The position numbers were made by a program, and so were the translations under genes. The notes below the pieces were generated by a model. The model was not told the DNA's origin. It ran no database searches and worked only from the letters and a program-made list of their open reading frames with translations. A stretch of 64,000 nt of DNA from an uncultured Eubacteriales bacterium (GTDB taxonomy: Bacteria > Bacillota > Clostridia > Christensenellales > Aristaeellaceae), in the NCBI GenBank assembly GCA_902765395.1, contig CACWZP010000001.1, forward strand, positions 124,001-188,000, read 5' to 3'. Positions 5,109-35,963 of this stretch are shown one piece after another. Positions within the stretch are counted from its first letter, which is position 1. Every line of letters begins with the position of its first letter.

Positions 5109-5119
5109 TTATGGGTGGT
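5091..5119 (-). terminator. Intrinsic terminator of the agr/xre operon
   Basis: In the minus-strand transcript ACCACCC (5119-5113), a 5-nt loop and GGGTGGT (5107-5101) form a perfect 7-bp stem, followed by the U-rich run TATCTTATTT. The stem overlaps the stop codon of the xre gene. Confidence 0.75.
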
Positions 5120-5411
5120 CATGGTTTAATGCATTACTGATGTATAACTGACAGATTGCCCGAAGACAGTTTTGATCTTGTCGAGAGAGTGAACTTATGA
5201 CGATTGTTGATTGTGTATCGATACCCAGCAAATAATCTGCCGTAACTGAAAACAGTTTGGCAAGATGAACTACATTGCCTACAGATGGATCTGAGACTTC
5301 ATTTTCCCAGTTCTTTATGCTCTTAACGCTGACTCCGAGCTCTCGCGCAAGCCTTGACTGAGACCATCCAATTTTTTGCCGCATCTCAAGAATACGTAAT
5401 CCGATCATCAT
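5109..5411 (-). CDS. XRE-family helix-turn-helix regulator
   Basis: About 100 residues. Residues 8-60 form a Cro/C1-type helix-turn-helix with the core SQSRLARELGVSVKSIKNWEN, followed by the common LAKLFSVTADYLLG tail. It is a probable cytoplasmic DNA-binding repressor. Two tandem ATGs (5411 and 5408) follow GGGGTG; the second has the better spacing. It lies 70 nt after agrB in the same direction, so it is either the last gene of the agr operon or has its own promoter in the gap. The inverted repeat at 5452-5468 is a candidate operator. Confidence 0.82.
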   Translation of the reverse strand: MMIGLRILEMRQKIGWSQSRLARELGVSVKSIKNWENEVSDPSVGNVVHLAKLFSVTADYLLGIDTQSTIVISSLSRQDQNCLRAICQLYISNALNHDHP

Positions 5412-5481: not shown

Positions 5482-6054
5482 TCATTCCACATCTGAGGGG
5501 TGTGTCCACTCTGCGGCATATCTGGATATTGCTGACAGAAATAAACCAAGGGAGAAGACGCTAATTAGTGGACATCTAAATAGAAGAAGAAGAGTTTGAG
5601 CAATAGCTGCCACAATCGTAGCCCCCCTTGAACAACGAGTAAACAAAGGCAGATTCTTTCTCAAAAAAAGCCGTTTCGGATGCAATACAACTGGGTATCT
5701 AAACAAAACCCAAAATGAGAGGCTGTTCATGACAAGCAAGATTTCAATAGAGAAATGGAGCTTCAACAATATCAGTGAAATGCTTAATGCAGTAATCATG
5801 GTAAGGATACAACTGAGACGGGTCTGAGTATGATAACCTCCACCTATTGTTTGATTTGTATAAAAAATCGAAATCAAGATGGCAGCATTATGGGTAGAAC
5901 AGAACAACCAGCCAACAACAATTAGTACAGTTAAACTAAAGAAGGTGTAAATCATTGTGCTTACACCGTAAAATAGAATCTGCGTGTCTCTGCAATCATT
6001 GTGAATATGCTTTACCAATCTACTCGTCAAACTATTAGAAATAGAGTGTATCAT
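5482..6054 (-). CDS. agrB: AgrB-type peptide-processing membrane endopeptidase
   Basis: 190 residues with several hydrophobic segments. It contains the AgrB active-site block GGGYHTQTRLSC: His75 and Cys82 match the spacing of the catalytic His and Cys of the family (His-x6-Cys). AgrB is an integral-membrane cysteine protease that trims the C-terminus of the AgrD propeptide and forms the cyclic thiolactone. The ATG overlaps the agrC stop as ATGA behind GGAGG, so translation is coupled. Its likely substrate is the small agrD-like gene at 8340-8489 on the opposite strand. High confidence. Confidence 0.9.
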   Translation of the reverse strand: MIHSISNSLTSRLVKHIHNDCRDTQILFYGVSTMIYTFFSLTVLIVVGWLFCSTHNAAILISIFYTNQTIGGGYHTQTRLSCILTMITALSISLILLKLHFSIEILLVMNSLSFWVLFRYPVVLHPKRLFLRKNLPLFTRCSRGATIVAAIAQTLLLLFRCPLISVFSLGLFLSAISRYAAEWTHPSDVE

Positions 6055-7367
6055 GTAATACCTCCCATATAAGGCAGTGTTATTTCTGCAGTAAAAACAG
6101 AATCCTTCTTATTAAAATAGCATACGCCCTCCGCCTGTTCAACGATATGCATGATGCTTAGAATTCCATAACCATTACTATTGTTCCGCTTTGATGAAAA
6201 GAATGTATCTCTATATGTCCTTAATGGCTTGTTATCGGTGGGATTAGAGCATGTGATATAGAGGACATCTCTACTACGAGAGAACGAAAAGTGAATCCGC
6301 TTATCGAGACTTTGATGAGGAAGACGACAAATTGCTTCAATAGCATTATCCAATAAATTCCCAACAATGGAACAGAAGGAAGGCTCGTTTATTGGCAATT
6401 CATTGAGTGGATAGGGAGAATACTCAAAGCTAATTCCAAGCTGTTTCATATAAGCTGCTTTTGCCGAGAGTAAAGCATCAACGGCGACACAACCCGTTAA
6501 ATACTGAACTGGCAGAGCGGTTATTTTCAGACCTTTAAGATAAACGCCGCTTTCTTCTATCTTGCCCTCATCAATCATCGCCTGTAAGGTACTGAACTGA
6601 TGCTTCATATCATGCCTAAGTTCCAGAATACTCTGATACAGACTGCGCATTTCATTTAGATGTGTTTCTTTTAAAGCTGTGATTTTGACTTGCAGTTCCA
6701 AGTCCGCTTTCTCCTTCGCCTTGGAAGATAGTAGCTCAAATAGTATAAGAAGGCCAGAAATGATAAACAGGAGACAGAACAGGGTGATAAAAACAGGCTT
6801 TTGAGGAACTAACTCTTGCCAACTCAAATTGTACTGCATTTCGATGGCTAATAAGGCAACGATGTTAAGTACAATAAAGAGAAGCAAAGAGGGCCAGGAC
6901 ATCGATTCTTGATGGAGCCTCACTTTTGAAACGGTGTAAAGAACAACAAACATTAAAACGTTAGCAAGAAGGACGTGGCATAACCTCAACATAGAAGGCA
7001 CCATTATAGCGTCCCCAGATACCCCAGCAAAGTTTATGAACATAGATAAAGTAGAACTTGCGATTGTCACGATTATAAGTTCAACAACCGCGTTCCATAG
7101 AACAATTACATACCACTTGGAATCAAAGACATAGAGCGAATAGATAAAGGGGAAAATTATCACGACACTATCAGTAATTAAAATCGGAAACCACATATAG
7201 AGAGAGTAAAAAAGCCCAACAGCGACAATTGTAAGAACAGATGCGAGATTGATCTCGCGAGTATTGCGATTTGGTTTTGTTGCAAGCATCCTTCGTAGGA
7301 AAAAAACATGTAACCATCCTTCAAATAGATTAATAAATATTTCAAAAACAGTCCAAATCACATTCAC
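6051..7367 (-). CDS. agrC: AgrC-type sensor histidine kinase
   Basis: 438 residues. The N-terminal half (about 1-215) has six or seven membrane segments, a linker coiled coil follows at 215-245, and the C-terminus is a GHKL ATPase. The H-box is ELRHDMKHQF with His252, the N-box is GNLLDNAIEA near 336-345, and a glycine-rich NGYGILSI segment is near 398. It should sense the cyclic peptide outside the cell and phosphorylate the response regulator. The start is GTG at 7367, behind GGGAGG and overlapping the agrA stop. Gene order and domain form match AgrC-class HPK10 kinases. Confidence 0.9.
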   Translation of the reverse strand: MNVIWTVFEIFINLFEGWLHVFFLRRMLATKPNRNTREINLASVLTIVAVGLFYSLYMWFPILITDSVVIIFPFIYSLYVFDSKWYVIVLWNAVVELIIVTIASSTLSMFINFAGVSGDAIMVPSMLRLCHVLLANVLMFVVLYTVSKVRLHQESMSWPSLLLFIVLNIVALLAIEMQYNLSWQELVPQKPVFITLFCLLFIISGLLILFELLSSKAKEKADLELQVKITALKETHLNEMRSLYQSILELRHDMKHQFSTLQAMIDEGKIEESGVYLKGLKITALPVQYLTGCVAVDALLSAKAAYMKQLGISFEYSPYPLNELPINEPSFCSIVGNLLDNAIEAICRLPHQSLDKRIHFSFSRSRDVLYITCSNPTDNKPLRTYRDTFFSSKRNNSNGYGILSIMHIVEQAEGVCYFNKKDSVFTAEITLPYMGGIT

Positions 7368-8101
7368 TTAATGTTTCCTCCCTGATATAATAGCTTGAAC
7401 TGGTGAAACACAGTGTCGCGAAATTTAAGGCTTATGGGGGCTTCTTGATTGTTTGTCAGTGTAACAGAAGTTCTTGTCAACCTTTGTACATACAAAAGAT
7501 TTACAATATAGCTCTGATGGCATTGTACAAATATGTCAGGAGGCAGATCCTTAAGCAGCTCACCAATTTTCTTACGAATCGTAATGATGGAGTTTTCGTC
7601 GTTAACAGTGTGAATACTTAAATAGTGAGCACGTGATTCGATGTAAACGATTGACTTATAAGCAACTCTATATATTTGTTGTTTGTTTTCCAGTATGATG
7701 AATGAACCAGATGATGCTATCTGCCATTGTCGGTATGCGATGTTCAGGCATTCAAAGACTTGGACATCGGATACAGGTTTGGCTAAAAAACGCAGTGCAT
7801 TGACTTTATAACCATCAATAGCGTATTCATCATAATTCGAAACAAAAACAATAACTACCTGATCATTAAGCATACGTAACTGCGTTGCCACTTGGAGGCC
7901 ACTTAATTCGGCAGGAAATTGAATGTCAAGGAAAACCAAATCGTATATCGTGTGGCTGCTTAAGGAATCAAGCATATCTTCAGAGGATTTAAAAACATCA
8001 TATGCTATGCTATTATTTCCTGTTTGTTTTTTCCATCTGTCAATAGATTCTTTGATTGCATTTGCGTAATGGATTTCGTCATCACAAATCAATATACGCA
8101 T
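7364..8101 (-). CDS. agrA: AgrA-type LytTR response regulator
   Basis: 245 residues from the ATG at 8101, preceded by AAAGGAG; the frame extends 20 codons further upstream without a better start. Residues 1-125 are a receiver domain with acidic residues at 8-9, the phospho-acceptor Asp59 in VFLDIQF and a conserved Lys in FLAKPV. Residues 140-245 form a LytTR DNA-binding domain (IVYIESRAHYLSIHT, IFVQCHQSYIVNL). It should be phosphorylated by the adjacent kinase and activate target promoters such as agrD upstream. It is the first gene of agrA-agrC-agrB-xre, a different order from the staphylococcal BDCA. Confidence 0.9.
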   Translation of the reverse strand: MRILICDDEIHYANAIKESIDRWKKQTGNNSIAYDVFKSSEDMLDSLSSHTIYDLVFLDIQFPAELSGLQVATQLRMLNDQVVIVFVSNYDEYAIDGYKVNALRFLAKPVSDVQVFECLNIAYRQWQIASSGSFIILENKQQIYRVAYKSIVYIESRAHYLSIHTVNDENSIITIRKKIGELLKDLPPDIFVQCHQSYIVNLLYVQRLTRTSVTLTNNQEAPISLKFRDTVFHQFKLLYQGGNIK

Positions 8102-8263
8102 GTGAAGGACTCTCCTTTCATATACTAATGGTATTATAGAATAGATTTGACAGCAAATCAACTCTAATAACTAGCGAATGTGGACATTTCTTCTGTTTTT
8201 AGGAATATTTATTACACTTTTACTGCGTTATGATTTGATGTATGCCATAATGTATATATTTTT

Positions 8264-8271
8264 GCTATGAT
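8264..8271 (+). promoter_or_regulatory. Extended -10 promoter candidate for agrD
   Basis: TGC-TATGAT, an extended -10 element 69 nt upstream of the agrD ATG, in the 238-nt gap between the divergent agrA and agrD genes. No good -35 is visible, as expected for a promoter needing an activator such as AgrA. Specific LytTR direct repeats could not be called with confidence. Confidence 0.4.
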
Positions 8272-8339
8272 ACGCATAAATGCAAAAATTCTGTTAAAGT
8301 GTATGCTGAGAATAAGACATGGAAAGGAAGGGGTATTAC

Positions 8340-8489
8340 ATGTTAAACAAGCTATGCACTGTATTTGTAGAGCTTCTATTCAAATACGGATATTGGACAG
8401 CGGGATTGCCTAGTAGTCATACTTGCTTTGAAGACAATATACCCATGGAAAGAGAAGGAGAGAATGCAAAAACCACCAATAATCTTTGA
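8340..8489 (+). CDS. agrD: AgrD-like cyclic autoinducer propeptide (49 aa)
   Basis: A 49-codon frame, ATG at 8340 and TGA at 8487-8489, behind AAGGAAGGGG. Its layout is that of AgrD: a short amphipathic/aromatic N-terminal helix (residues 1-19), a core with one candidate thiolactone Cys at 29 (context SSHTCFEDNIP), and a highly charged acidic tail starting at Pro35 (MEREGEN). Cys6 lies in the helix. AgrB would cut near residues 33-35 and join the carboxyl to Cys29. The gene is divergent from agrA and separated from agrB, which is unusual. It is followed by a strong terminator, so it is a single-gene transcript. The exact mature peptide cannot be fixed by eye. Confidence 0.78.
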   Translation: MLNKLCTVFVELLFKYGYWTAGLPSSHTCFEDNIPMEREGENAKTTNNL

Positions 8490-8513: not shown

Positions 8514-8562
8514 GGAGGACTTGATAGGTAGCACTTATGCTTTATCATCAAGTCCTTTTTTT
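8514..8562 (+). terminator. Intrinsic terminator after agrD
   Basis: GGACTTGAT (8517-8525) pairs with ATCAAGTCC (8547-8555), followed immediately by seven T residues (8556-8562). It lies 27 nt after the agrD stop. Confidence 0.85.
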
Positions 8563-8836
8563 GTGCTGATATTAGTGCTAGGTAATGAAAACGTTGTACA
8601 ACAAAGAAAAAGCCAAGGCAATCGATTAGGTTTAACACGTATCATTAGTCGTCTATTTATGCCATAAATCCATGCAAATCTGTCTATTAGGTCCATAGAT
8701 AAGGGATAGCTGGTATTATAATATTGTAGGCAATGCATTGCGAATCCTCAGGACAGGGAGAGGGGAGTGAGAGAATTCAACTAGAGATTGATACTCAGAT
8801 TTGTTAGACAGCAATAGAACGAAAGGATGTATCATA
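8563..8836. other. Intergenic stretch between agrD terminator and secreted-protein gene
   Basis: AT-rich noncoding DNA expected to carry the promoter of the gene at 8837. A TATAAT lies near 8715 but has no recognisable -35 at 17 nt, so the promoter may be activator-dependent. A 67-codon minus-strand frame here lacks support. Confidence 0.4.
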
Positions 8837-9298
8837 ATGAATAAGATCAGCAAGATGGTTGCCATCACTTTGGCCTGCATGATCATGATGTGCATGGCAG
8901 TACCCGCATTTGCAACTACAGGGTTTGAAGAAGGACCGACTGGTTGGCTTCAGGGCAATGGAACCAGCACTATTGGTAACAATATTGTCGCTACGGCTAC
9001 AGGCAACTCGCTTTATGTGGGTGGCAGGGCCTCGTTTAAAACTACCGGATCAGTAGCGAAACGAACGATTACTGTTATTGTTGGCTTATACGATGTTGAT
9101 GCAGAGTACTGTTTGGGAACTGCAAGTAAATCCAGGGAAGTTTCTTGTACTGGAGCAATGGCACCTACAGGTTATTACAGCTTTAAGGGAACTTCAACGA
9201 TAAGCTATTATACAGGGCAAGAATGCCGGTATAAAGTTACGCGCAGTAACTTCACTAATGCAATCTATGGAAAGTATAAGGGATACTTGTCCGACTAA
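8837..9298 (+). CDS. Small secreted protein of unknown function
   Basis: 153 residues from the ATG at 8837, behind GAAAGGATG. A clear Sec signal peptide (residues 1-26, hydrophobic core with Met-rich segment, AFA-T cleavage) leads a mature domain of about 127 residues rich in Gly, Ser, Thr and Tyr with three cysteines, which looks like a small beta-rich extracellular domain. I do not recognise the family. It lies downstream of the agr locus on the same strand as agrD, but the agrD terminator separates them. The minus-strand gene at 10917 encodes a similarly built secreted protein. Confidence 0.75.
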   Translation: MNKISKMVAITLACMIMMCMAVPAFATTGFEEGPTGWLQGNGTSTIGNNIVATATGNSLYVGGRASFKTTGSVAKRTITVIVGLYDVDAEYCLGTASKSREVSCTGAMAPTGYYSFKGTSTISYYTGQECRYKVTRSNFTNAIYGKYKGYLSD

Positions 9299-9441: not shown

Positions 9442-10761
9442 ATGTTTCGCAAGTTACTATCAACAATTGTTTCTTTATTGGTCTTTTCTTTGTTGAGCTA
9501 TACATCTATAGGATATGCTCTGACGATTGCCGGAGAAGCATATCCAGAGATTCTGAATAATTATCTGGCGAGTCACCCAGAAATAAAAGTGATACCGATG
9601 TATGATGATACCGAATTCATCCGAGATGCCCTGGATCATTCAGATGCAATTGACGTTTACTTCTTTCATACACTCCAGTCAACTGTTTTTGAAACTTTGC
9701 GGGACAAAGGATATCTCCTGCCTCTCAGCGATCCGGAACTAATGGCGTTCACGCAATCGCTATATCCAGAACTCCAGACGATCACGGTCTATGACGGGGA
9801 AGTATGCGCACTTCCGTTCGCAATGGTGATTCAACCGGGCATAGGTGTGTATATGGATACCTGGGAGAAATGTGGGCTTAGCGACGAAGCTCTACCGACG
9901 ACATGGGGGCAACTGATGCATTTTGTCGTCGAAGAATGGCCCGCAATATCTGACCAATACGAAGGAGTGAGGCTGTTTGATGCGACGAATACTTCTTATG
10001 CCTTGCTGACGCAGATCGGAAATAATTACGAAGCCTATCGTGCCAGACACAACTACGAGTTTGGGTATGATACTCCGGAATTTCGAGAAATCCTTCAACT
10101 GTTCCAGCAGATGAGCAGAGACGAAGAAAACAACGAATACGACGATGCTGAAGAATTCCTGTTTTGCTGCACTTATTATCCTTCTGTCAAGGAATTTGGG
10201 GGAAACTCTCGTGCTTTGCAGCTATCCTTCAGGGAAGGGGAAGGACCTTGCTGGGCCACAGGTATGCTTGTAATGGCGATCAATCCCGAATCGAGATGTA
10301 TTGATGAAGCAGTTGAGTTGGTTAAGTATGTTGTGGAAAATATGAATATCTACGACAGAATGGATATGTGTCCCGAAGAGAACGAACCGGTTATCGGTGA
10401 TTTGTACTATGAAGGTCAGGCAGACTATGAAAGCCAGATGAAACTGTATTCTGAAAGGCTTGAAACCGCCGAAGATGAAGCGACCTACAGAGAAATCGAG
10501 ATGGAACGCGATGCTTACGATCAGGAAACCCAAGCTTGGTTGTCGGAGAACAAATACGCTGCCAGTACTGAATCCATCCAGCAGTATCGTTGGGAGGTCG
10601 AGAATGCGCTCACGCCAATCTATCGGACCGGCCTCAGCCGAGAGGAATACCGTGCCGTAAATGAAAAAAGGCAGCAATTCCTTGATGGACAGATTTCTGC
10701 TGATCAGTATATATCTGAGTTGGAAAGGCGGTTTGTTTTCAACAGGCTTGAAAACCAGTAA
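9442..10761 (+). CDS. Secreted solute-binding-protein-like protein, orphan
   Basis: 439 residues. The N-terminal signal peptide (about 1-26, ending near GYALT) has no lipobox cysteine, unlike typical Firmicute ABC solute-binding lipoproteins. The body resembles family 1 extracellular solute-binding proteins (a VYDGEVCALPFAM segment near 112 and TWGQLMHFVVEEW near 153). The C-terminal third (about 325-439) is strongly charged and helical, with coiled-coil-like heptads. No permease or ATPase gene is adjacent. It may have been recruited to a role other than uptake, such as capturing a ligand outside the cell. The fold assignment is moderate. Confidence 0.6.
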   Translation: MFRKLLSTIVSLLVFSLLSYTSIGYALTIAGEAYPEILNNYLASHPEIKVIPMYDDTEFIRDALDHSDAIDVYFFHTLQSTVFETLRDKGYLLPLSDPELMAFTQSLYPELQTITVYDGEVCALPFAMVIQPGIGVYMDTWEKCGLSDEALPTTWGQLMHFVVEEWPAISDQYEGVRLFDATNTSYALLTQIGNNYEAYRARHNYEFGYDTPEFREILQLFQQMSRDEENNEYDDAEEFLFCCTYYPSVKEFGGNSRALQLSFREGEGPCWATGMLVMAINPESRCIDEAVELVKYVVENMNIYDRMDMCPEENEPVIGDLYYEGQADYESQMKLYSERLETAEDEATYREIEMERDAYDQETQAWLSENKYAASTESIQQYRWEVENALTPIYRTGLSREEYRAVNEKRQQFLDGQISADQYISELERRFVFNRLENQ

Positions 10762-11403: not shown

Positions 11404-12171
11404 TTACAGATTTGATGAATCAATCAATCGAACGCTTTCGGCAATACGCTCGGCTTCATCAAAATCACCATTAAAATACAGATATAGGTAGGTATCGTCG
11501 ATGCACCATGTGATTATGGTACTCTGATTATTCGACGTGGCGATTCCAGAGTATCCATTAATCGTGATATCGATGGCATCTTCATCATCAATATTAACAT
11601 TGGTATAGACGTTATCTTGAAACTCGCCAAATTCCAATGCTCGGTTATTCGTCGAGGTATAATAAACTGAGTTAAAATGTTCATCTATATGAGAAAACAT
11701 AAAAGAATCGGGGATATAACTAGGATAATACATCCCCTTCCACTCATCAGGCACATCAAGCTCTTCATTCTCGCTGAAAACAAGACTGACAGCCGAATAG
11801 TTTTCCTCAATCCGAGCTATGAAATCCAGTACCCTCAATCGTATCGGGCGCACCGTTGCAACAGCGGTGGTCAGTCCGATGAAGAACAGGAGCAGCGTTA
11901 TGGTGACAATGTGAAGCGTGCGAGGAAGAGTCTTCAGAACAAACTGCTTTCTAAGTCGCTTATTCAGCTTGTGCTCAATTAGCTTCAAAGTCTTCTTCTG
12001 CGCGGCATCAGAATAATCAGATTCTGAAACGGACGACGGATTCCGCTCATATTCATTGAGCTCATCCTCGTCGATTTCAGCAAAGGCAATGCGAATCTTA
12101 AGCCCTTCCAATTCGTTATAGAGGGATTGGCTTAACGATGAGTTTTGTTTGGTTGAATTGCTCTGGGTCAT
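11404..12171 (-). CDS. Anti-sigma-factor-like membrane protein with DUF4367-type domain
   Basis: 255 residues. The cytoplasmic N-terminus (1-87) is charged, a single membrane helix spans about 90-112 (TLHIVTITLLLFFIGLTTAVATV), and the extracellular C-terminal half has the YYPSYIPDSFMFSHI and W-C-I-D-D-T-Y-L-Y-L pattern of DUF4367 domains often attached to anti-sigma factors. The ATG at 12171 overlaps the sigma-factor stop as ATGA behind GGAG, so the two proteins are made together, as expected for a sigma/anti-sigma pair. What the external domain senses is unknown. Confidence 0.75.
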   Translation of the reverse strand: MTQSNSTKQNSSLSQSLYNELEGLKIRIAFAEIDEDELNEYERNPSSVSESDYSDAAQKKTLKLIEHKLNKRLRKQFVLKTLPRTLHIVTITLLLFFIGLTTAVATVRPIRLRVLDFIARIEENYSAVSLVFSENEELDVPDEWKGMYYPSYIPDSFMFSHIDEHFNSVYYTSTNNRALEFGEFQDNVYTNVNIDDEDAIDITINGYSGIATSNNQSTIITWCIDDTYLYLYFNGDFDEAERIAESVRLIDSSNL

Positions 12172-12755
12172 AAGCACTCCATTTCAGACAATATGGCTTT
12201 CAATTGACGACGGGCGAGGGTGAAATAGTAGCGGACACTATCTATCTTTATCGCAAGGTAGGACGCAATTTCTTTGTCAGAGAGTTGGTCAAAGTATTTC
12301 ATTCTCAGTATTGTACGATCCCTTTCAGACAGCTTGAGCAATGCTTTCCGCACAGACTCAATATCACTCTCCTGGAGCAGACGGTCATCCACACTTTCGT
12401 CAGAAACGGTTCCATCGAATACCTGTTCATTCTCGGAGAGAAAGCTATATTTGCTTCTCCGATTGCGCTTAACGACATAATTGATTGAACAGTTCTTGAC
12501 TATAGAGACAATGTAAGCGCGCTGTTTGCAAGGCTCAACGCCTCTGATCTTATCTAAGTTGTCAATAATAGTAATACAGCAGTCTTGAACAAGATCTTCT
12601 GCTGTATGGGTATCCTCGACGATATTATACGCTGTTTTGAACATAATGAATTTGTATTGCTGATATAGCTCCATGACAAATTGACGATCATCATCGTTCT
12701 CAATTTGCAGGATTACTATTGGAACAGAACACAATAGAGAAGCCGGGAAATACAT
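12168..12755 (-). CDS. ECF-like RNA polymerase sigma factor
   Basis: 195 residues. Sigma region 2 is around residues 25-90 (core EDLVQDCCITIIDNLDKIR) and region 4 around 133-190 (LSERDRTILRMKYFDQLSDKEIASYL and a C-terminal recognition helix). It should direct RNA polymerase to a small regulon and be held by the membrane protein encoded next. AGAGGG precedes the ATG at 12755. It lies 36 nt after an XRE gene and probably shares its transcript. Confidence 0.88.
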   Translation of the reverse strand: MYFPASLLCSVPIVILQIENDDDRQFVMELYQQYKFIMFKTAYNIVEDTHTAEDLVQDCCITIIDNLDKIRGVEPCKQRAYIVSIVKNCSINYVVKRNRRSKYSFLSENEQVFDGTVSDESVDDRLLQESDIESVRKALLKLSERDRTILRMKYFDQLSDKEIASYLAIKIDSVRYYFTLARRQLKAILSEMECL

Positions 12756-13581: not shown

Positions 13582-15705
13582 ATGAGAATAGACTTGCATT
13601 GCCATACAAAAGCAATCAAAAAGGGGGACGGCGCGGGTCGAAATGTCACGCCGGAGCTTTTTAAGCGGCAAGTAGAAGATGCTGATATCAAAATAATAGC
13701 AATAACTAACCACAATGCATTTGACTATGACCAGTTTAAGGTTCTTTCTGAGTGCGTGAAAGAGTCTTGTATTGTATGGCCCGGGGTTGAAATAGATGTA
13801 TTGGATATAAGCTCGAAGAGGTGGCATTTGATTGTTGTAGTAAACCCCAAAGAAGCCGAAGCGTTTTCTAAAAGCGTATCTTCACTCTTTTCTGGTGATG
13901 ATTTGAACGAATGTACTCATACGCTTGATGAAATCTGCAGTACATTTCGAGTGCATGATGCTATCTATATAGCACATTATCACGAGAAAAAACCGGCTGT
14001 ACCAGATGAGGATGCAGACAAACTGGATAGATTAGTTGGGGAACCGTATCGAGTATTCAAGGAGACCGCAAATGAGAAGTCCATGAGCATATTTGCCAAT
14101 TATAGGTATAATGTGCTTGTTGGAAGTGATGTAAAAGATTGGAGCCACTATGGAGAGTGCTCCTTCTCAGAGCTGAAGCTTCCGGTTTCAAGCTTTGAGC
14201 AATTTTGCTTGCTGGCAAGGCGTGATGTAAATGTCGTTGAGACATTAATGAATAAAAAGCAGTCCAAAATGCTTACGGCACATCCGGCTGCCTCTGTAGA
14301 TTTGCCCATTCGCATATTTTCTGATATGAATATCGTTTTTGGCCAAAAAGGAACGGGAAAAACAGAAATTATCAATAGCCTCCATGACAACATGAAAGCC
14401 AGCGGGTACAGATGCGTTGAATATGTCGCTTCGGAACGGGATGAAGAGTTTAAGGGCCTGCTGCGTACAAAAGGCTTGGAGCGCGATCCTGCAAAGCTTG
14501 GTATCTCAACATGTGAGGATGAATTTGGAATCATCTCTCGGTGGGTTGATTCAAGTCCGACCCATTTTGAAAACTACATAAATTGGAAGAAAACTGAAGG
14601 ATATAATGTGAACAAACAGAGGATGCGGATTACCCAAGCGACTGCTCTTTCAAAGACTGAGAATGAGGAAGAGGAGGCTCATGCATCAGATAAAGTCTCT
14701 GTTGATAGAGTGATCTCTGAGATTGGAAAGATTTGTATATCTGACTATCTCTCTAAGGAAGAAACCGAGCAACTGATTTCGTTGCTTAAACTACTTAGGG
14801 AAAGGATCTATAGTTGTCGTATCAATGATCTTGTTGATTCATATGCAGTTCATTTGGTGAACTATAGTATCAATAAGATCAAGAGAATTGCAGATAAAAG
14901 CACTAATTCAGTTTCAAAACCATCAGTAACAGGATTTGAACAGTTTGTGGATAACCGTCTACAGCTATATAGGGCAGTAAAAACAATATTGGATAATCTG
15001 GAACATGAAGAGAGCAACGAACAAGAGAAGATAGGCTCTTTGGATGAAAAAGGAGAAATCTTCATTAATACAAAATATAGAATGCTTTGTGATTCCTCGA
15101 GGACAGATGAGTTCCTAAATGGGATAAGGAAACTCAAGGATGTCAAGGTAAAACTGGAGTTTATTAGAAGCCATGTCTTTGACGCGGAGATCTCCGAAGC
15201 CATCCGACAGCTAAATGAGTTATGCGAGGAGGAGATTAAATCCGTATTGCAATTTGTAGGAGTATCCAAGCAAGTGGTGAATGATAATGGGGAAGTGTAT
15301 TCGCCATCTAATGGCGAGAAAGGAATGTTACTTCTCCAGCGTGCTTTAATGAATGAGGCAGATGCCTATTTCCTGGATGAGCCCGAATTAGGGATGGGGA
15401 ATTCATATATTGATACCAGCATTCGGCCATTGCTTGTTGACTTGTCAAAACAACACAAGTATGTAGTTGTTGCAACCCACAACGCGAATATTGCAGTAAG
15501 GACTTTACCTTATACGTCGATCTATAGGACACATAGCAATGGAAAGTATTCGACCTATATCGGGAACCCGTTTACAGATCAGCTTGTGAATTGTAACGAT
15601 CCGACAGACATTCTGAATTGGGCAGAGGAAAGCCTGAAATCGCTGGAAGGCAGCAGAGACGCATTTTACGAAAGGAAGGATATATATGAATCAAATCACA
15701 CTTAA
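13582..15705 (+). CDS. PHP-domain/ABC-type ATPase fusion (TrlF/Ppl-like, putative defence protein)
   Basis: 707 residues. Residues 1-200 form a PHP metal-dependent phosphoesterase domain with DLHCHT (His6, His8), ITNHNAF near 41, IAHYHEKKP near 130 and GSD near 181. From about 245 there is an SMC/ABC-like ATPase: Walker A GQKGTGKT at 254-261, a long helical middle, the signature-like SNGEKG near 575, Walker B AYFLDEPE near 595 and an H-loop ATHN near 632. Such fusions occur in phage-defence settings (TrlF family, Ppl). AGGAGAG precedes the ATG. A small gene overlaps its 3' end. A nuclease or nucleotide target is possible but unproven. Confidence 0.8.
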   Translation: MRIDLHCHTKAIKKGDGAGRNVTPELFKRQVEDADIKIIAITNHNAFDYDQFKVLSECVKESCIVWPGVEIDVLDISSKRWHLIVVVNPKEAEAFSKSVSSLFSGDDLNECTHTLDEICSTFRVHDAIYIAHYHEKKPAVPDEDADKLDRLVGEPYRVFKETANEKSMSIFANYRYNVLVGSDVKDWSHYGECSFSELKLPVSSFEQFCLLARRDVNVVETLMNKKQSKMLTAHPAASVDLPIRIFSDMNIVFGQKGTGKTEIINSLHDNMKASGYRCVEYVASERDEEFKGLLRTKGLERDPAKLGISTCEDEFGIISRWVDSSPTHFENYINWKKTEGYNVNKQRMRITQATALSKTENEEEEAHASDKVSVDRVISEIGKICISDYLSKEETEQLISLLKLLRERIYSCRINDLVDSYAVHLVNYSINKIKRIADKSTNSVSKPSVTGFEQFVDNRLQLYRAVKTILDNLEHEESNEQEKIGSLDEKGEIFINTKYRMLCDSSRTDEFLNGIRKLKDVKVKLEFIRSHVFDAEISEAIRQLNELCEEEIKSVLQFVGVSKQVVNDNGEVYSPSNGEKGMLLLQRALMNEADAYFLDEPELGMGNSYIDTSIRPLLVDLSKQHKYVVVATHNANIAVRTLPYTSIYRTHSNGKYSTYIGNPFTDQLVNCNDPTDILNWAEESLKSLEGSRDAFYERKDIYESNHT

Positions 15706-19927: not shown

Positions 19928-22264
19928 TTAGTTCACGATGGCAATATGTTCAGATACCTTAATGTTGCTATACCAGAAATTATACTCGTTCAGTTTTTGT
20001 GTTATTCCATTATAGGCTTTCCCACGATGAAGGGGGTCTTTTATTGTAATGATTAAGCAAAACTCCTGACTTAAGTCTGTTCCATTGATTGCTGCCTGAT
20101 CTTCTGTATGGCTACGGTACGTGCCTTCCAGATTCAGGTACCACTGTTTTCCACCAGTTATGTATTTTATCCTATTCCCTTCCGTTAATTCCGACAAGTC
20201 AACTGCGTATTTCTTTACTGGATAGTACTTATCGGCGTACTGAATGAGCATTCTTTCCTTAAGAGCGAAGTCATCTATCGCATCGCTCATTTTCAGCTTG
20301 CTGTAAAGACTTCCTCGAAGTATATTTTGAGATCCTTTTCTACCTACGGGATTGAGAATGCCGTTCCGCGTTGTGTCTCTTGCCTCTTTCTCATCATAGG
20401 TGCCAAACCGCACATCCATATTTGATTGGCAATACTCAAATCCCTGAGAGGGATCAAGAATCGGACTATATGCCAAGGTAACAATGACCTGTCCAGTATA
20501 AAACCCGTCCACAACCAAGCAGTCTGGCATCGGGAAGTCTTTTATATCAATATAGCTTCCCTTAGGAAGGGTATCGCGTAATATCAAAGTGGCTTCATCA
20601 GGAGAATTATAGAGTATCTGTCGAACGGTTCCAGGCACTCCAAATCCAAGATATTTTGTTCGCTCAACCTCTGGCACCAACAGTTCCGGAGCATAATTGG
20701 CCGAATGGATAATCAGCGATTTCAAAAGAAGTGGATCAAATTCTTCGTTCATTTCGTTCAGTAGGCCTGCTGCTAAAGCGGATACTCTTGGAGTAGAAAA
20801 GCTTGTGCCGGCCTTTTCAATAATATAACCATTCTGCGCAAAAGAGTATACGCCCGTCTGAAGTACTCTACCAGTCCTGTCTGTGCCCGCATTTCCGCCA
20901 AAGTGTACAATATCCGGTTTAATAATATAAGCTGGACCCGGGCCCTTTCTTGAAAATGGAGAAGGGTTGTTTGGCTCAGAAATATCTGCTCCTTCTTTCT
21001 TTTCTGCAACAGAACCAACTACCAAGGAACGTACAGAATCAGCACCTTCGTTTAATCGGCCCAATGGTTTGCCAGACGCGAAATTCATACAGTTCCCCGC
21101 CGACTTACAGATAAGTACATTATACTCATCCTGTATTGCGTCAAGGGCTACAGCAAAATCACTAAACTTATTTCCAGAAATCTCTCTGGTTATGCTTATT
21201 GAGAGATTCCATATTTTGATTTCTTGGTGCTTCATTTTGATGATTTCCCGGATGTTTTCAATCAGTTCGTCTTCTTCCAACCTTTCCTTGTTCAGATCCG
21301 GGAAAACAGCTCCATCAAATACCTTGACATTATCGGAACCAGTCAATTCTTTTTGCTGAAGCTTATCTCCATACGTTATTATCCCTGCCACAAAAGTACC
21401 ATGAGTAGCTTGGATAGAACTGTTCGGATAAACAGATTCTCTCCTTCCTTCAATCCATGGGCGAAGATGATCAATGGGTTCAATACCATTATCAAGCACG
21501 CCGACCGTGGTAGTTTTGCTGTTTTCATTAGGATATCTGATCGGTATTACCCTTTGTGAGGGGAGTGAATCAAGTGTTATATCGAAAATAGGCATAGGGA
21601 CAATCTCCTCAGCCATTTCGAACAGATCGGCCTGCATAAGCTCGTCAAGTTGTAGAATACTTATATCTCGTAGCTTGTATATTACAAGCGTACTGGTATA
21701 TACAGTCCGACTAAACTCGACATTTCTGGATACAAGCATATGCTCAAAGCGTGTATGAATACTTTGGTTGGTGCTGTAGTCATGAAAATCAAACAATTTT
21801 ATCTTGTAATTTGCCTGTCTAGTAGAGCGTTCCACAGGTGTATGAAACCGAGAGATTTCTTCAATCCCGGATATGCCATATGCATTTTTTTCGGTATCCA
21901 TTAGCCTGCTTTGTATTTCTTTTGCGTCCTCCAAGGAATCGACTTTTATGATTAGTGTATCCTCGTCACCAACACCTATGATATTGTTCGGCTTGGTTGT
22001 AAAAACTGATTCGATTTTACGCCTGTGACTCTTTGCGTGAGCATCTTTCGTCATAGTAGCCTGCACTATGACAGGAACCGTACGTGTTTCCCATTCCGTT
22101 TCATCTACTATACTGGCCATTCCCGTTGAAAGGTGTAGCGATCTTTCAAACAATTCGGAGCCTGTCAGTACCCATTTAGGCAAATCCTTTGATGAATTAC
22201 CCTCAACACGTTGTTTGTCTTCATCGCGCTTGCTGAAGAATTTGATTGGTAGCAATTCTGCCAT
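19928..22264 (-). CDS. ietS: Subtilisin-like serine protease of an IetAS-type pair
   Basis: 778 residues. The S8 catalytic triad is complete: Asp258 in TVGVLDNGI, His288 in ATHGTFVAG and Ser488 in AGTSFSTPRVSALAAG, with the oxyanion Asn391 in SAGN. About 240 residues precede and 270 follow the protease core. There is no signal peptide, so it acts in the cytoplasm. Its gene overlaps the AAA ATPase gene by 44 nt behind AAGGAGG. The ATPase plus subtilase combination matches the IetAS anti-phage system (ietA, ietS), in which the ATPase presumably controls the protease. Confidence 0.85.
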   Translation of the reverse strand: MAELLPIKFFSKRDEDKQRVEGNSSKDLPKWVLTGSELFERSLHLSTGMASIVDETEWETRTVPVIVQATMTKDAHAKSHRRKIESVFTTKPNNIIGVGDEDTLIIKVDSLEDAKEIQSRLMDTEKNAYGISGIEEISRFHTPVERSTRQANYKIKLFDFHDYSTNQSIHTRFEHMLVSRNVEFSRTVYTSTLVIYKLRDISILQLDELMQADLFEMAEEIVPMPIFDITLDSLPSQRVIPIRYPNENSKTTTVGVLDNGIEPIDHLRPWIEGRRESVYPNSSIQATHGTFVAGIITYGDKLQQKELTGSDNVKVFDGAVFPDLNKERLEEDELIENIREIIKMKHQEIKIWNLSISITREISGNKFSDFAVALDAIQDEYNVLICKSAGNCMNFASGKPLGRLNEGADSVRSLVVGSVAEKKEGADISEPNNPSPFSRKGPGPAYIIKPDIVHFGGNAGTDRTGRVLQTGVYSFAQNGYIIEKAGTSFSTPRVSALAAGLLNEMNEEFDPLLLKSLIIHSANYAPELLVPEVERTKYLGFGVPGTVRQILYNSPDEATLILRDTLPKGSYIDIKDFPMPDCLVVDGFYTGQVIVTLAYSPILDPSQGFEYCQSNMDVRFGTYDEKEARDTTRNGILNPVGRKGSQNILRGSLYSKLKMSDAIDDFALKERMLIQYADKYYPVKKYAVDLSELTEGNRIKYITGGKQWYLNLEGTYRSHTEDQAAINGTDLSQEFCLIITIKDPLHRGKAYNGITQKLNEYNFWYSNIKVSEHIAIVN

Positions 22265-23366
22265 TTTCGTCAGTCCTCCTTAACATTTTGGATATCGCCT
22301 GTACTTTCCGCAACGGAAAACCACGTTTCTGTAACTCTCGGTGAGTCATTCCATTTTCGATCAAATAAGTGAGATAATCATTCTCGTCATTTATCAAATG
22401 ATTCCGAAAGAGAAATGCTTCTCTCAGGATATCATACATTGATACCTCTTCAGAATCACTGATCAGGCTATTCTTTATCGCATTGCCAATCACCGTTTTT
22501 ACATCTGCATGACTAAGGCCATCCAACGTCACAGATATAGTATGTATGTTTTTCTCGCTCAGTTTAAACCTGATATTTCCAGCATTAATGTATGAATAAA
22601 CTAATATTTTAATCTCTTTCGTAGTAGGCTTCTCAACTGCCAAAACTCGATTAAATCGTCGCCAAATAGCAGGGTCTAGGAGTTCATGGTGATTTGTTGC
22701 CGCAATTATGATATTGCTCCGACTGAAAACATCGATATTTTGAATTAAGCTATTGACGACTCTTTTTAGTTCACCAGTCTCATTCTTGTCATCCCTTACT
22801 TTGGCTATAACGTCAAATTCATCCAGAAACAGAATACACTCTTGCCTAGAGGCAAAATCAAAGACTTTGCGTATATTCTTAGCTGTGCTTCCGAGAAGCG
22901 ATGAGATTAGGCCATCCAACCTAACTGTAATCAATGGCAGTCCGGTCTGTGACGAGATATATTTTGCCAACGTTGTTTTTCCACAGCCTGGAGGCCCATA
23001 CAAAAGTAATGAGCTTCCCTCATCAATCCCTGCAGCAATCAGTTTATCTCGGTTTATATAACACCGAATAAAATCTTGTATCTCAATCTTGGTATCCTTA
23101 TTAAGAACAAGAGAGCTATCGTCAATGGATGGGTAGGATATGTCCACCATATCCATCCGGCTCTCTCCATCTACAGGTTTTGAAGAAAGAGAATCCAATG
23201 CAAGCATCCCAGCCTTCCTGCCAGAGATAACATTTCTGATTTTCTTTGCCAAAGCTTTGTCCCCAGAGGCATCCAGGTTGTCTGCAAGTACCTTGGCATA
23301 ATTATATACCTTTTCTCGGTCGCCATTAAGGCCACCTTCGATGATCTTTGAAATCTCCGTATACAT
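22221..23366 (-). CDS. ietA: AAA ATPase of an IetAS-type pair
   Basis: 381 residues from the ATG at 23366. An AAA+ core has Walker A GPPGCGKTT at 124-132, Walker B ILFLDEFD at 178-185, a sensor-1 AATNHHELLDP segment and an arginine-finger-like WRRFNR. The N-terminal 90 residues are a small helical domain. I chose 23366 because GAGGTGG lies 6 nt upstream and because a consensus promoter (23386-23414) sits inside the longer frame that starts at 23429. It is the first gene of the two-gene operon. Confidence 0.85.
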   Translation of the reverse strand: MYTEISKIIEGGLNGDREKVYNYAKVLADNLDASGDKALAKKIRNVISGRKAGMLALDSLSSKPVDGESRMDMVDISYPSIDDSSLVLNKDTKIEIQDFIRCYINRDKLIAAGIDEGSSLLLYGPPGCGKTTLAKYISSQTGLPLITVRLDGLISSLLGSTAKNIRKVFDFASRQECILFLDEFDVIAKVRDDKNETGELKRVVNSLIQNIDVFSRSNIIIAATNHHELLDPAIWRRFNRVLAVEKPTTKEIKILVYSYINAGNIRFKLSEKNIHTISVTLDGLSHADVKTVIGNAIKNSLISDSEEVSMYDILREAFLFRNHLINDENDYLTYLIENGMTHRELQKRGFPLRKVQAISKMLRRTDENGRIATNQILQQAR

Positions 23367-23385
23367 GGGAAGCCACCTCGTGATC

Positions 23386-23414
23386 ATTTTAGCAGAAATG
23401 CCATCAGATGTCAA
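23386..23414 (-). promoter_or_regulatory. Promoter of the ietAS operon
   Basis: On the minus strand TTGACA, 17-nt spacer, TAAAAT, with the predicted transcription start about 13 nt before the ATG at 23366. Confidence 0.75.
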
Positions 23415-23429
23415 GAGTTGTGTTATCAA

Positions 23430-23933: not shown

Positions 23934-24716
23934 ATGAAAGAGAACAGTGTGAGCCATAAAGTGGCAGTTCTGATTGATGCAGAGAATATAGCTTACAAAT
24001 ATGCGCAGTTGATTCTTAGTGAAGCAAGCAATTTTGGTAATGTTGTGTGTAGAAGAATCTATGGTGACTGGTCTTTAGAAGCACTGTCATCCTGGAAGGC
24101 ACCTATTATGGATTATTCTATTAATCCAATACAGCAATTCCATAATACAACAGGAAAAAACGCTTCAGATTCAGCTTTGATCATTGATGCAATGGATTTG
24201 CTACACGAAGAAAGGTACCAGTGTGTTTGTATTGTCTCCTCAGATAGTGATTTTACAAGACTAGCGGCACGCTTGAGAGAATCGGAAATCTTTGTAGTTG
24301 GAATGGGCGAACAGAAGACACCAGCCTCTTTCCGGAGTGCATGTGATAAATTTCTTTACCTCGATCTTCTTGAAAAAGAAGAAGAGAAGAAGATTGAAAG
24401 CTTAGTAGCAGACAAAAAAGGCAAACAAATAGTAGCCTTGCGAGACAATGATCAAAATGGGCTAAACCTTCAAACAGTAATTGCGACAATTAATGGTATT
24501 ATTGATACAGAATCGGACGAAGATGGATGGGTCGGTTTGGCTGCAGTGGGATCCAAGCTAAATGCAAAGATATCAGATTTTGATGTTCGGAACTTTGGGT
24601 GCAGTAAACTTGCCCAGTTTATTAGGGGGCAAGCCGTCTTTGAGGTAAAAGAAGTGAAGCTACAATCAGACCCAAACATCAAAGTGGTATATATAAGGAA
24701 AAAGACTAAAAGTTAG
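23934..24716 (+). CDS. NYN-domain (PIN-like) protein with C-terminal OST-HTH/LOTUS-like domain
   Basis: 260 residues. Residues 9-150 form an NYN/LabA-type PIN-like domain with the acidic positions LIDAENIA (Asp14, Glu16), DSALIIDAMDLL near 79 and SSDSDFTRLAARLRE near 102. Residues about 175-255 (VGLAAVGSKLNAKISDFDVRNFGCSKLAQFI) fit an OST-HTH/LOTUS RNA-binding domain. Such proteins are predicted metal-dependent ribonucleases. GGGAGG precedes the ATG. It stands alone next to the IetAS operon, in a region rich in defence-like genes. Confidence 0.85.
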   Translation: MKENSVSHKVAVLIDAENIAYKYAQLILSEASNFGNVVCRRIYGDWSLEALSSWKAPIMDYSINPIQQFHNTTGKNASDSALIIDAMDLLHEERYQCVCIVSSDSDFTRLAARLRESEIFVVGMGEQKTPASFRSACDKFLYLDLLEKEEEKKIESLVADKKGKQIVALRDNDQNGLNLQTVIATINGIIDTESDEDGWVGLAAVGSKLNAKISDFDVRNFGCSKLAQFIRGQAVFEVKEVKLQSDPNIKVVYIRKKTKS

Positions 24717-29712: not shown

Positions 29713-32046
29713 TTATTTCTCGATCTCGTCGAGCTTGGTGGTCATGAGCTGGTACAACTGTGTGCCCTTGGGGAATGGCGACTCAAACGGGACGATGTTG
29801 CCGGAGCAGCGGATCAGCCCCTTGCCGACGCCGGTGTTGTTGATGTAGTTGAGCTGGGTGTTGCTGATGTTCAACAGGCGCGCCAGCTCCACCTGGTCGG
29901 AGGCTGCCTGGTTCAGCAGGATCAGGAACTCGCTGTTGCCCAGCATCGTGCGCGCCGTGTGGCTCTGGAGCATATCCTCCAGGTTCTGGCTGATGCCCGT
30001 GCAGTACGCGCCGCACTTGCGCACGCGCTTCCACAGCTCGAACAGGAAGTTGGAGCTGTAGTCGTTGGCGAACAGCAGGTAGATCTCGTCGATGTAGATC
30101 CAGGTGTTCCGCTTGAGCTCGCGGTTGCGGGAAATGCGGTTGTACACAGCATCCAGCACCACCAGCATCCCGATGGGCTTGAGCTGCTTACCCAGCTCGT
30201 GGATGTCGTAGCAGACGATGCGGTTGTTGGTGTCCACATTGGTCTGCTGGGCGAAGGTGTTGAGGCTGCCGCGCGTGAACAGCTCGATGGCCAGCGCGAT
30301 TTCCCGCGCCTCTGGCTCTGTCTGCTTCAAAAGCTCCTGGTGGAAGTTTTGCAGCGTCGGCGGGTTGCCGGTGTAGTCCCGCTTGACGTAGCCCCGGTAG
30401 GTGTCGGTGATGCAGCGGTCGATCAGGGACTTCTCCTTCGCGTTCAGCGTGCCGCCCACGGCCATCTCGCACAGCGACAGTATGAATTCCGATTTCAGGA
30501 TGATCGGGTTCTCCACGTCGCCGTATTCCCTGGACACGTCCATGGCGTTGATATGGTTGGGACTGGTGGCGGAAATGTTGATGACCTCGCCGCCCAGCGC
30601 GCGCACCAGCCTGCCGTACTCCGCTTCGGGGTCGATCAGCAGGATTTCGTCGTCGGTGTTCAGCACGATGTTGATGAACTCTTCCTTGCTGATGAAGGAC
30701 TTGCCGGAGCCGGACACGCCGAACACGAAGCCGTTGCCGTTCAACAGGTGCTTGCGGTTGATGACGATCAGGTTCTTCGAGATGGCGTTGTGCCCGTAGC
30801 AGATGCCGCCGCCGTCGAACAGCTCCTGGGTCTTGAAGGGCATCAGCACCGCCGTGCTCTCCGTGGTCATCGTGCGCAGCGCGTCGATCATCCGCACGCC
30901 GTAGGGCAGCACGGTGTTCAGGCCGTCCGCCTGCTGAAAGCGCAGCGTGGAGATCTGGCACAGGTCGGTGCGGGCGATGGACAGCAGCGATTCCGTGTCG
31001 CTGTCCAGCTCCTCCTTCGTCTCGGCCATGTGAACCAGCGTCACGCAGCACAGCATCATGCGCTGGTCGCGGGTGGTCAGGTCGTCCAGGAACTCCTTGG
31101 CCTCCTTGCGCTGCACCTCCATGTCGTGGGGAATGGTGCCGGTGAAGTTCTGGTTGTTCTGCTGACGGCGGTTGTAGTTGGTGATGTTCGTCTCCACCTT
31201 CAGAAGCTGGTTGCCCGCCTGCTTCACGGCTTCGTCGGTGGGGATGGGGATGATGTCGATGGTCAGCATCATGGTGCGGTTGAGCGCGCACAGCTTCTGG
31301 ATCATCTCATCCTTGATGTAGTTGGCGTACTCGCGCAGGAACAGCACCCGGCCCCAGCGCCCGTCGATCTTGAAGTGGTTGCTTTCCATCTCCACGGAAT
31401 CCGGGCAGATGTAGTCGATGGGCGAATGCCCGCGCCGGGCCGACTGGCGCAGGTCAAAGTGGTACTCCTCCTCCTTTCCGGTGCGGAAGAAGTCGTGGAA
31501 GATGCGCAGCCGCTCCGTGGTGTCCAGCGGCGTCAGCGCCGAGGACAGCGCCGAGAACCGGGACTGGAGCTCCGCCGTGATGCGCACAAAGTAGTTCCGG
31601 GCTTCCTCGATGTTCTTCTTGGCCACGCTCACCGTCAGCAGCTTGTCCTGGGTGATGTTGTTGTTGGCGCTCATGGCCTGCTCCAGAATAAAGTCGTTCA
31701 TCTCGCGCCGGTACAGATCGTGCTCGTCGTGCCGCATGGGCATCATGATGGACTGCTCGAAGTCCGCGCGGTTGACGCGCCGATTGTACAGCGTGATCTT
31801 GATGTTCGCGCCGGTATCCAGCGCGTTGATGACCTCGCACCATTGGAGGAACATCGTGCGCTGATCGTCCGGGCTGGCGATGGAGTAGTTGATGTCGGTG
31901 AAGCGGTAGGTCTTGCTGAACTTTCCGTCGCAAAAGAAAATGCCGTCCGCGTACACCCGCTGGATCGGCATCCACTGCTGCACCGACTTGGGGACGGCAC
32001 AGTGTTCCTTGTCGCGCCTGGTAAGCAAATTCAGGGTTTTGCTCAT
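29713..32046 (-). CDS. virB4: VirB4/TraE-type conjugation ATPase
   Basis: 777 residues. The C-terminal half is the motor: Walker A VSGSGKSF around 442-450, Walker B TWIYIDEIYLLF near 645. The N-terminal half is the family's channel-binding region. VirB4 energises assembly of the type IV secretion channel from the cytoplasmic face. It follows the PrgI gene by about 120 nt, the standard arrangement (PrgI corresponds to VirB3). Length is usual. High confidence. Confidence 0.93.
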   Translation of the reverse strand: MSKTLNLLTRRDKEHCAVPKSVQQWMPIQRVYADGIFFCDGKFSKTYRFTDINYSIASPDDQRTMFLQWCEVINALDTGANIKITLYNRRVNRADFEQSIMMPMRHDEHDLYRREMNDFILEQAMSANNNITQDKLLTVSVAKKNIEEARNYFVRITAELQSRFSALSSALTPLDTTERLRIFHDFFRTGKEEEYHFDLRQSARRGHSPIDYICPDSVEMESNHFKIDGRWGRVLFLREYANYIKDEMIQKLCALNRTMMLTIDIIPIPTDEAVKQAGNQLLKVETNITNYNRRQQNNQNFTGTIPHDMEVQRKEAKEFLDDLTTRDQRMMLCCVTLVHMAETKEELDSDTESLLSIARTDLCQISTLRFQQADGLNTVLPYGVRMIDALRTMTTESTAVLMPFKTQELFDGGGICYGHNAISKNLIVINRKHLLNGNGFVFGVSGSGKSFISKEEFINIVLNTDDEILLIDPEAEYGRLVRALGGEVINISATSPNHINAMDVSREYGDVENPIILKSEFILSLCEMAVGGTLNAKEKSLIDRCITDTYRGYVKRDYTGNPPTLQNFHQELLKQTEPEAREIALAIELFTRGSLNTFAQQTNVDTNNRIVCYDIHELGKQLKPIGMLVVLDAVYNRISRNRELKRNTWIYIDEIYLLFANDYSSNFLFELWKRVRKCGAYCTGISQNLEDMLQSHTARTMLGNSEFLILLNQAASDQVELARLLNISNTQLNYINNTGVGKGLIRCSGNIVPFESPFPKGTQLYQLMTTKLDEIEK

Positions 32047-32166
32047 TTCATCCCTCGCTTTTTGTCGGCTGCCCCGGCCCGCAGGGGGCCGTCGCAGCTA
32101 CGCGGCGGGCCAGCCAAATGGCCTCGCCGCTACTCGTCACTTCGGTGATTAACCATGAATGGTTCA

Positions 32167-32643: not shown

Positions 32644-32696
32644 GGTTTATCACGCTCCTGATAGGGTTCTCAATGTCCTGATGGTCGAAAATGGGG

Positions 32697-33533: not shown

Positions 33534-33592
33534 AAGGGTGTCTCACCTCCCAGTGCGGCGCGCCGCTGAGCGACGCGCCGCCGTCGCGCATA

Positions 33593-33910: not shown

Positions 33911-33923
33911 AGTCGTGATCTCC

Positions 33924-35959: not shown

Positions 35960-35963
35960 AGCA

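Follow-up and report, generated by a model that had tools for sequence, protein, structure and literature searches.

The window, that is, the whole stretch of 64,000 nucleotides that was analysed, comes from a relative of uncultured gut Clostridia and carries an agr system on its minus strand. The agrA-like gene (7364-8101) encodes a response regulator in which a receiver and a LytTR domain both score over the Pfam cut-off (PF00072, E 3.8e-14; PF04397, E 2.6e-18). It is followed by an agrC-like histidine kinase with a GHKL-type HATPase_c_5 domain over cut-off (6051-7367; PF14501, E 2.7e-14), whose N-terminal half was judged from the sequence by eye to be hydrophobic, by an agrB-like membrane endopeptidase (5482-6054; PF04647, E 2.5e-13, 50.2 bits against a cut-off of 23) and, downstream of agrB, by an xre-type regulator (5109-5411; PF01381, E 1.1e-12). 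By their coordinates, agrA overlaps agrC and agrC overlaps agrB by 4 nt each, and coordinates and domain matches together confirm the order agrA-agrC-agrB-xre given in the initial annotation. The catalytic pair that it had named in AgrB, His75 and Cys82, was also found: both residues are invariant in 11 aligned rows, and H-x6-C is present in all 30 AgrBs examined. This AgrB is the sole PF04647 match in its own genome assembly (95.9% complete). Its predicted fold has a mean pLDDT of 91.5 and found no match in the PDB, by fold at E 0.001 or by sequence at E 10, so the fold model adds nothing to the assignment.

On the opposite strand to agrA lies an open reading frame of 49 codons followed by TGA (8340-8489, +), with the translation MLNKLCTVFVELLFKYGYWTAGLPSSHTCFEDNIPMEREGENAKTTNNL. 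A purine-rich ribosome-binding site, GGAAAGGAAGGGG, was found 7-19 nt upstream (8321-8333, +). An ATG at 8319 is in frame with it and overlaps this ribosome site, and the similarity to the peptide of the nearest related locus, L054, begins at 8340 (MLN...); the start codon is therefore likely to be the one at 8340. Residues 1-17 have a hydrophobic moment of 0.41, a value reached by 3.6% of 2000 shuffles, and the tail from residue 31 contains five D/E against two K/R, giving an amphipathic leader and a charged tail in a peptide whose 49 aa lie within the size range of AgrD (40-50 residues). The gene with its good ribosome site, the amphipathic N-terminal helix, the acidic tail and the placement opposite agrA were all recovered as first described.

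Comparison with relatives establishes this frame as a real gene. With the lone window peptide as query, 60 relatives gave chance-level matches only, the best outside its own genome at E 0.235. A hidden Markov model (HMM) built from six relatives, with the window left out, picked the frame of the window out of 8132 at E 6.6e-6, in a search set in which some contigs occur twice. L054 (contig CACZNZ010000153.1, from a metagenome-assembled genome (MAG) recorded as Lachnospiraceae) contains agrA-agrC-agrB, xre and a divergent peptide; this peptide occupies the same place in the locus and is 51% identical to that of the window over 37 aa (E 4.6e-9). Over the 37 codons in common, the differences fall at 25 third positions against 16 first and 13 second positions. 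Furthermore, the pattern [SC]x4[FYH]Exx[VIM]P, written after the family had been seen, the window peptide included, fits one of the 885 window frames of 30-100 aa.

Within the genus, this AgrB was found in none of the 27 other genomes searched, nor was an AgrC orthologue; AgrC matches at E 0.001 occur in 25 of the 27, and among the matches listed identity is at most 30%, with the N-terminal part missing. In the wider family, AgrB scores over the Pfam cut-off in 24 of 300 genomes. The loci compared were those of the ten AgrBs that tblastn placed closest to that of the window (27-35% identity in the alignment) and the more distant L053. The order agrA-agrC-agrB is present in nine of the ten nearest, while L043 begins inside agrC at a contig end. 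On the opposite strand before agrA, the relatives carry short frames with strong ribosome sites, which align to the window peptide and are ungapped in its middle. The conservation of the peptide frame next to AgrB homologues, on which the initial annotation had made its reading depend, was thus found.

An AgrB tree of 30 rows, which excluded partial or below-cut-off matches (L026, L037, L038, L042) and a single place lacking a locus, separated a clade of 15 that includes the window from 15 ordinary AgrBs (L014-L025, L039-L041) with support of 100/99. With one count per genome (L055-L058, L061, L062 and L064 were not counted, as they show the same contigs via another collection), a homologous peptide gene is present on the same contig in 13 of the 15 clade loci, and in those 13 it is never directly beside agrB on agrB's strand. 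It is directly divergent from agrA in eight (the window, L048, L049, L050, L051, L052, L054 and L063), divergent from an xre gene preceding agrA in two (L044, L046), divergent from agrC in one (L060, read as L097, where agrA was not found) and located beyond agrB, divergent from xre, in two (L045, L059). As for the remaining clade members, L043 has its peptide on another contig of the same genome, and L047 has only a damaged-looking frame, MNRVRNFLSLFSIKCGKVSAKSPSMEKPPPKK... (2444-2575, -), which lacks the ring motif, is flanked by two genes that are 93% identical and have signal-like starts, and is perhaps a broken agrD. An xre homologue occurs in seven of the other 12 peptide-bearing loci of the clade. 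L059, on a 3.2-kb contig of a MAG recorded as Spirochaetales, may be mis-binned, since its peptide is nearly identical to that of a genome of the window's own family (G301). The genome of L053 (G091), whose AgrB is a weakly supported sister of the clade (84/77), matched neither the peptide profile nor the AgrD model TIGR04223.

The relation of this peptide family to AgrD is remote. Neither Pfam nor NCBIfam, including TIGR04223 (quorum_AgrD, cut-off 19 bits), matched the window peptide even at E 10, and the window's genome assembly has no TIGR04223 match at E 0.1. Four of the 14 members of the peptide family match this model at E 10, with scores among the relatives of 19.3 bits for L095, 18.8 for L060 and 13.5 for L063; because L095 barely passes the cut-off and L060 barely fails it, the family, by its sequences, grades into known AgrD. 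Across genomes, TIGR04223 scores over cut-off in 12 of 13 with an ordinary AgrB, G091 being the exception, and in 0 of 13 with a divergent AgrB, so the peptide fills an AgrD slot that would otherwise be empty. When the 14 peptides were aligned by hhalign with 13 ordinary AgrDs, found by TIGR04223 in the same bacterial family, the probability was 92.8 (E 4e-7), with Ser25 placed on the ordinary Cys and Pro35 on Pro. The spacing of 10 from nucleophile to Pro (Ser25-Pro35) is shared by all 14 peptides and all 13 ordinary AgrDs. This remote homology, together with the blank result in Pfam and NCBIfam, bears out the earlier suggestion of an unrecognised AgrD-like pro-peptide.

The peptide also departs from ordinary AgrD. 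All 13 ordinary AgrDs carry Pro-x-x-Leu/Met after the ring, whereas the window has PMER, and ordinary agrD genes lie within 250 nt of agrB in ten of 13 cases and about 3 kb off in two, whereas the window gene is not beside agrB on the agrB strand. In the thirteenth, genome G084, a Cys-type AgrD, GLACKGTFHQPETPEALR, stands opposite the strand of its own agrC-agrB (L128:2187-2282, -), so a divergent layout also exists outside the Ser-type clade. By a strict test the window peptide falls outside TIGR04223, because it is below cut-off, is not beside agrB and lacks Leu38; it is classed as a divergent AgrD-like subfamily that would work like AgrD. The frame is conserved, keeps its place beside a distinct AgrB clade and is remotely homologous to ordinary AgrD, and the peptide is very likely the substrate of AgrB. 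That ORF 8340-8489 is the AgrD pro-peptide of the adjoining agr system, of a divergent subfamily encoded apart from agrB, is considered highly probable, and its core, that the strand opposite the other agr genes encodes an unrecognised AgrD, is well supported.

The agr locus is located in a stretch with a GC content of 0.37-0.48 (2-kb windows, 4 to 26 kb), with 0.57-0.63 on either side (at 1-5 kb and at 26-30 kb); the first 2 kb of the window have 0.44. This stretch is probably imported cargo and may have been carried by the conjugation element at 29716-40316 (-), where a TraG P-loop ATPase, a coupling protein and a relaxase are found together with an AbiEii-type gene; the ends of the putative imported element were not found. 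The same stretch holds a subtilase and AAA ATPase pair (19931-23429, -) that matches the anti-phage defence system IetAS in PADLOC (IetS, E 0; IetA, E 8e-132). An ATPase at 13585-15702 (+) matches the candidate defence model PDC-M49A (E 6e-31), and a protein at 23934-24713 (+) combines NYN and OST-HTH/LOTUS domains. In addition, an ECF sigma factor and a DUF4367 gene lie near the agr locus (11404-12740, -), and sigma-factor-like genes also occur near the agr loci of L045 and L054.

The window copy could conceivably be a decaying or silent agrD on such an imported island, with the circuit not closed in this strain. It departs from its family in carrying Thr at Gly28 and Arg at Leu38 (Leu in 12 of 14 members), and from these departures it could be drifting; furthermore, neither this AgrB nor an AgrC orthologue was found in the other 27 genomes searched within the genus, and L047 suggests that damaged copies exist. 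Against this stand the open frame, its ribosome site, the terminator-like hairpin that follows it, the intact frames of AgrA, AgrC and AgrB, and the excess of third-position differences from L054, and decay is regarded as unlikely. The alignment also bears on which residue closes the ring.

The initial annotation had assigned this role to Cys29, as the thiolactone residue. Column 29 of the 14 aligned peptides is variable (C, A, S, S, S, T, S, N, T, S, M, S, T, R), while column 25 carries Ser in 13 peptides and Cys in the other. In addition, two similar peptides, L049 (AQSACFRGRYEAPVPAS) and L151 (AQRASFHGCYEAPVPAS), differ by a Cys/Ser swap at position 25 among other differences. Cysteine is the commoner nucleophile, being used in 17 of 20 tabulated autoinducing peptides (AIPs) (PMC12312760), but Cys29 was rejected on the unconserved column and on its distance of six residues to the conserved Pro, against 10 in 13 of 13 ordinary AgrDs; an AgrD with a thiolactone closed by Cys29 is thus very improbable. 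The ring is probably closed by serine, and the signal is likely a lactone between Ser25 and the carboxyl group of Cys29, with the predicted ring S25-S26-H27-T28-C29 encoded by codons 25-29 (8412-8426, +). This assignment follows from the alignment columns, the AgrD profile alignment and the precedent of Clostridium thermocellum, where the AgrD-type peptide Clo1313_2818 (S25, F29, Y30, P35) was confirmed by LC-MS/MS to yield a pentapeptide lactone from S25 to F29 (PMC5322536). A six-residue ring ending at Phe30 is conceivable as an alternative, because six-residue AIP rings have been reported (PMC12312760).

The composition of the ring is also distinctive. Position 3 is basic in 13 of the 14 peptides and position 4 is Gly in 13 of 14; the window has His-Thr at these positions. 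Among the 20 rings of the published table, Ser closes three, the last residue is M, F, L, I, V or W in 17, and Gly occurs at position 4 in a single AIP, CHLGI of C. botulinum (PMC12312760). The basic-Gly pair of this family is therefore unlike most of the AIPs listed there.

A first profile of seven peptides, run on 396 genomes of the order, had matches at E 0.1 in 42 of them, of which only five reached E 1e-6 (G000, G075, G080, G346, G451) and the others lay at 0.001 or worse; owing to this split, E 0.001 was adopted as the later cut-off. With the 14-row profile, the peptide was found at E 0.001 in 14 of 308 genomes of the family, at 16 places, and in two of 391 genomes drawn over the class, namely that of the window and G905, in which it lies near AgrC- and AgrA-like genes while an AgrB match is absent. 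Ten of the 16 places have agr genes alongside, four are on short contigs or at contig ends, and two have room but none: in G301 and G276:C34, with 6-8 kb on each side, tblastn at 1e-4 detected no agrA, agrC or agrB. In G273, one of the ten, xre-agrA-agrC stands beside the peptide and agrB was not found. The peptide and AgrB are thus not strictly coupled. All five places outside the 14-row profile (G301, G258:C164, G273, G266, G276:C34) fit Sx[HR]Gx[FY]ExxVP, an agreement favoured by their detection with the profile itself, G301 and G276:C34 being near-copies of profile row L059. With the lone window AgrB as query, no relative was found in viral contigs or genome contigs; its alignment as query found 11 loci in genome contigs and none in viral contigs. 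Although some homologues lack agr genes and adjoin genes for small secreted proteins, it is hardly credible that the ORF encodes another small secreted peptide (bacteriocin-like or another RiPP) or a leader, with the AgrB substrate elsewhere in the genome, given its remote AgrD homology and nucleophile-Pro spacing, its conserved position beside AgrB and the lack of a TIGR04223 match at E 0.1 in the window's genome.

The genes around this agrD include possible targets of the circuit. The next gene downstream (8837-9298, +) encodes a 153-aa protein with a hydrophobic, signal-like N-terminus, and is followed by a gene for a solute-binding-like protein (9442-10761, +), homologues of which lie near the peptide gene in L054 (E 8e-29), L046 (E 2e-14), L050 (E 5e-11) and L095 (E 1.6e-6). 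Leaving aside three of 18 peptide loci with too little contig, nine of the other 15 have a frame with a hydrophobic N-terminus at most 350 nt on and on the same strand, in a count that uses mechanical frames and in which L095 and L096 come from one genome and L148 and L152 are near-copies. The last two carry copies of the peptide gene (L148:7515-7658, +; L152:7587-7673, +) with no agrA, agrC or agrB found nearby, and 108 nt on, a gene for a 191-aa secreted-looking protein, whose two versions are 99% identical. A single family of small secreted proteins was considered and rejected: among the 10 compared, clear mutual matches were limited to L046, L095 and L096, beside the near-identical pair of L148 and L152, and the best match of the window's 153-aa protein was at E 0.025 over 25 residues of its signal-like start.

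Several candidate control signals accompany the peptide gene. The extended -10 that had been assigned to it is present, as a TG before TATGAT in a promoter-like site at 8242-8271 (+) found by consensus scan, but it is weak evidence for a promoter of its own, because 9 such sites occur between 8050 and 9450 against 5.3 (sd 1.8) in shuffles. The terminator claimed for it corresponds to a hairpin with a T-run after the stop codon (8514-8562, +; -23.3 kcal/mol, z -3.65), equalled in stability by none of 200 shuffles, although the consensus terminator scan did not list it. A 13-mer at 8232-8244 (+), GATTTGATGTATG, recurs identically in the same intergenic region of L054 and is a candidate regulatory element. 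Furthermore, the 10-mer TATGCCATAA has just two copies in the window, one before the peptide gene (8241-8250) and one before the 8837 gene (8658-8667, +), against 0.11 expected and with at least two copies in 1 of 100 shuffles, the 10-mer having been picked after inspection; this candidate shared element hints that both genes are under shared control.

A two-box motif search on 14 upstream regions, the window included, scored 97.2 to 111.9 in eight runs, compared with 86.9 to 93.1 (best of two runs each) for the same type of search on 12 shuffled sets. A TTCRTGCCAA-like repeat, about 21 nt apart, is found in several relatives. Without the window the search settled on a different mixture and was unstable on the relatives alone, and a LytTR-type repeat could not be demonstrated in the window, where the best site in 8102-8339 ranked 57th in the 64 kb and lies on the minus strand; for these reasons, no LytTR site is claimed for the window.

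Among known systems, Clo1313_2818 of C. thermocellum is similar in its Ser25 lactone (predicted for the window peptide), ring end at residue 29, aromatic residue 30 and Pro35, and its gene is likewise outside an apparent agr operon (PMC5322536). The description of a stand-alone agrD therefore holds in that the gene is apart from agrB and divergent from agrA, but it has a precedent in this peptide. In contrast to the window, where the opposite strand encodes AgrB, AgrC and AgrA next to the peptide gene, none of these three was identified as a cognate partner of Clo1313_2818 in that study, and its ring ends in Phe rather than having the composition S-S-H-T-C (PMC5322536). With the ordinary agrBDCA or agrBD systems of staphylococci, Listeria and clostridia, the window system shares the AgrB H-x6-C, a LytTR regulator and a GHKL kinase (PMC12312760), and with ordinary AgrD an amphipathic N-terminus, a nucleophile 10 residues before Pro and a charged tail. 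It differs in that agrD is not beside agrB, in the order A-C-B with a frequent xre and in the predicted Ser nucleophile (PMC12312760), as well as in the basic-Gly ring positions 3-4 of its family and the lack of an AgrD-model match.

Serine-closed rings are known from S. pseudintermedius (RIPT[STGFF]), C. difficile agr2 (NSA[SSWVA]) and the GBAP of E. faecalis; the predicted window ring would resemble these in being closed through Ser, whereas their agrD or fsrD stands with the B gene and their rings end in Phe-Phe, Val-Ala or Trp-Met (PMC12312760). In the published AIP table, agrD or fsrD is named with the B gene in each locus (PMC12312760), and the C. thermocellum peptide is the exception to this layout in the literature compared. 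Within the titles and abstract openings of open-access literature, no agrD divergent from an agrA-agrC-agrB operon was found, nor anything joining agrD with Christensenella.

From these parts a circuit can be proposed. The peptide would sit on the membrane through its amphipathic N-terminus, where AgrB, using His75 and Cys82, would cut after residue 29 and pass the acyl group to Ser25. The product would be a lactone ring of five residues, S-S-H-T-C, bearing a short tail at its N-terminus, and a second protease would free the ring peptide. The ring would then activate AgrC, which would phosphorylate AgrA, and AgrA would act in the 8102-8339 intergenic region to raise expression of the peptide gene, possibly also of agrA-agrC-agrB and perhaps of the neighbouring secreted-protein genes. 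Splitting agrD from agrB in this way would place signal dose and processing capacity under separate promoters.

Altogether, the standard model overlooks the pro-peptide of an entire AgrB clade, TIGR04223 scoring over cut-off in 0 of 13 such genomes, so that automatic annotation probably presents such loci as agr systems without a signal. The peptide profile fills this gap, and the specific rings that it predicts are open to synthesis and to assay with AgrC reporters. Confirmation of the polar basic-Gly ring would widen the known AIP chemistry, in which 17 of 20 tabulated rings have a hydrophobic end (M, F, L, I, V or W; PMC12312760), and density signalling would become testable in poorly cultured Clostridia. 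In the broadest reading, a separate agr branch, so far without a recognised signal, would exist in two or more families of a single, mostly uncultured order of Clostridia, with signal and processing genes on divergent transcripts, agrD tied to genes for small secreted proteins and a distinct Ser-lactone class, S-x-[His/Arg/Lys]-Gly-x, replacing the hydrophobic-ended rings; the case for and against this reading is evenly balanced. In this reading, signal-gene copies that stand alone, with no agrB or agrC, suggest cheating, eavesdropping or cross-strain activation. The agr system of the window itself resides in a low-GC stretch with phage-defence genes, near conjugation genes.
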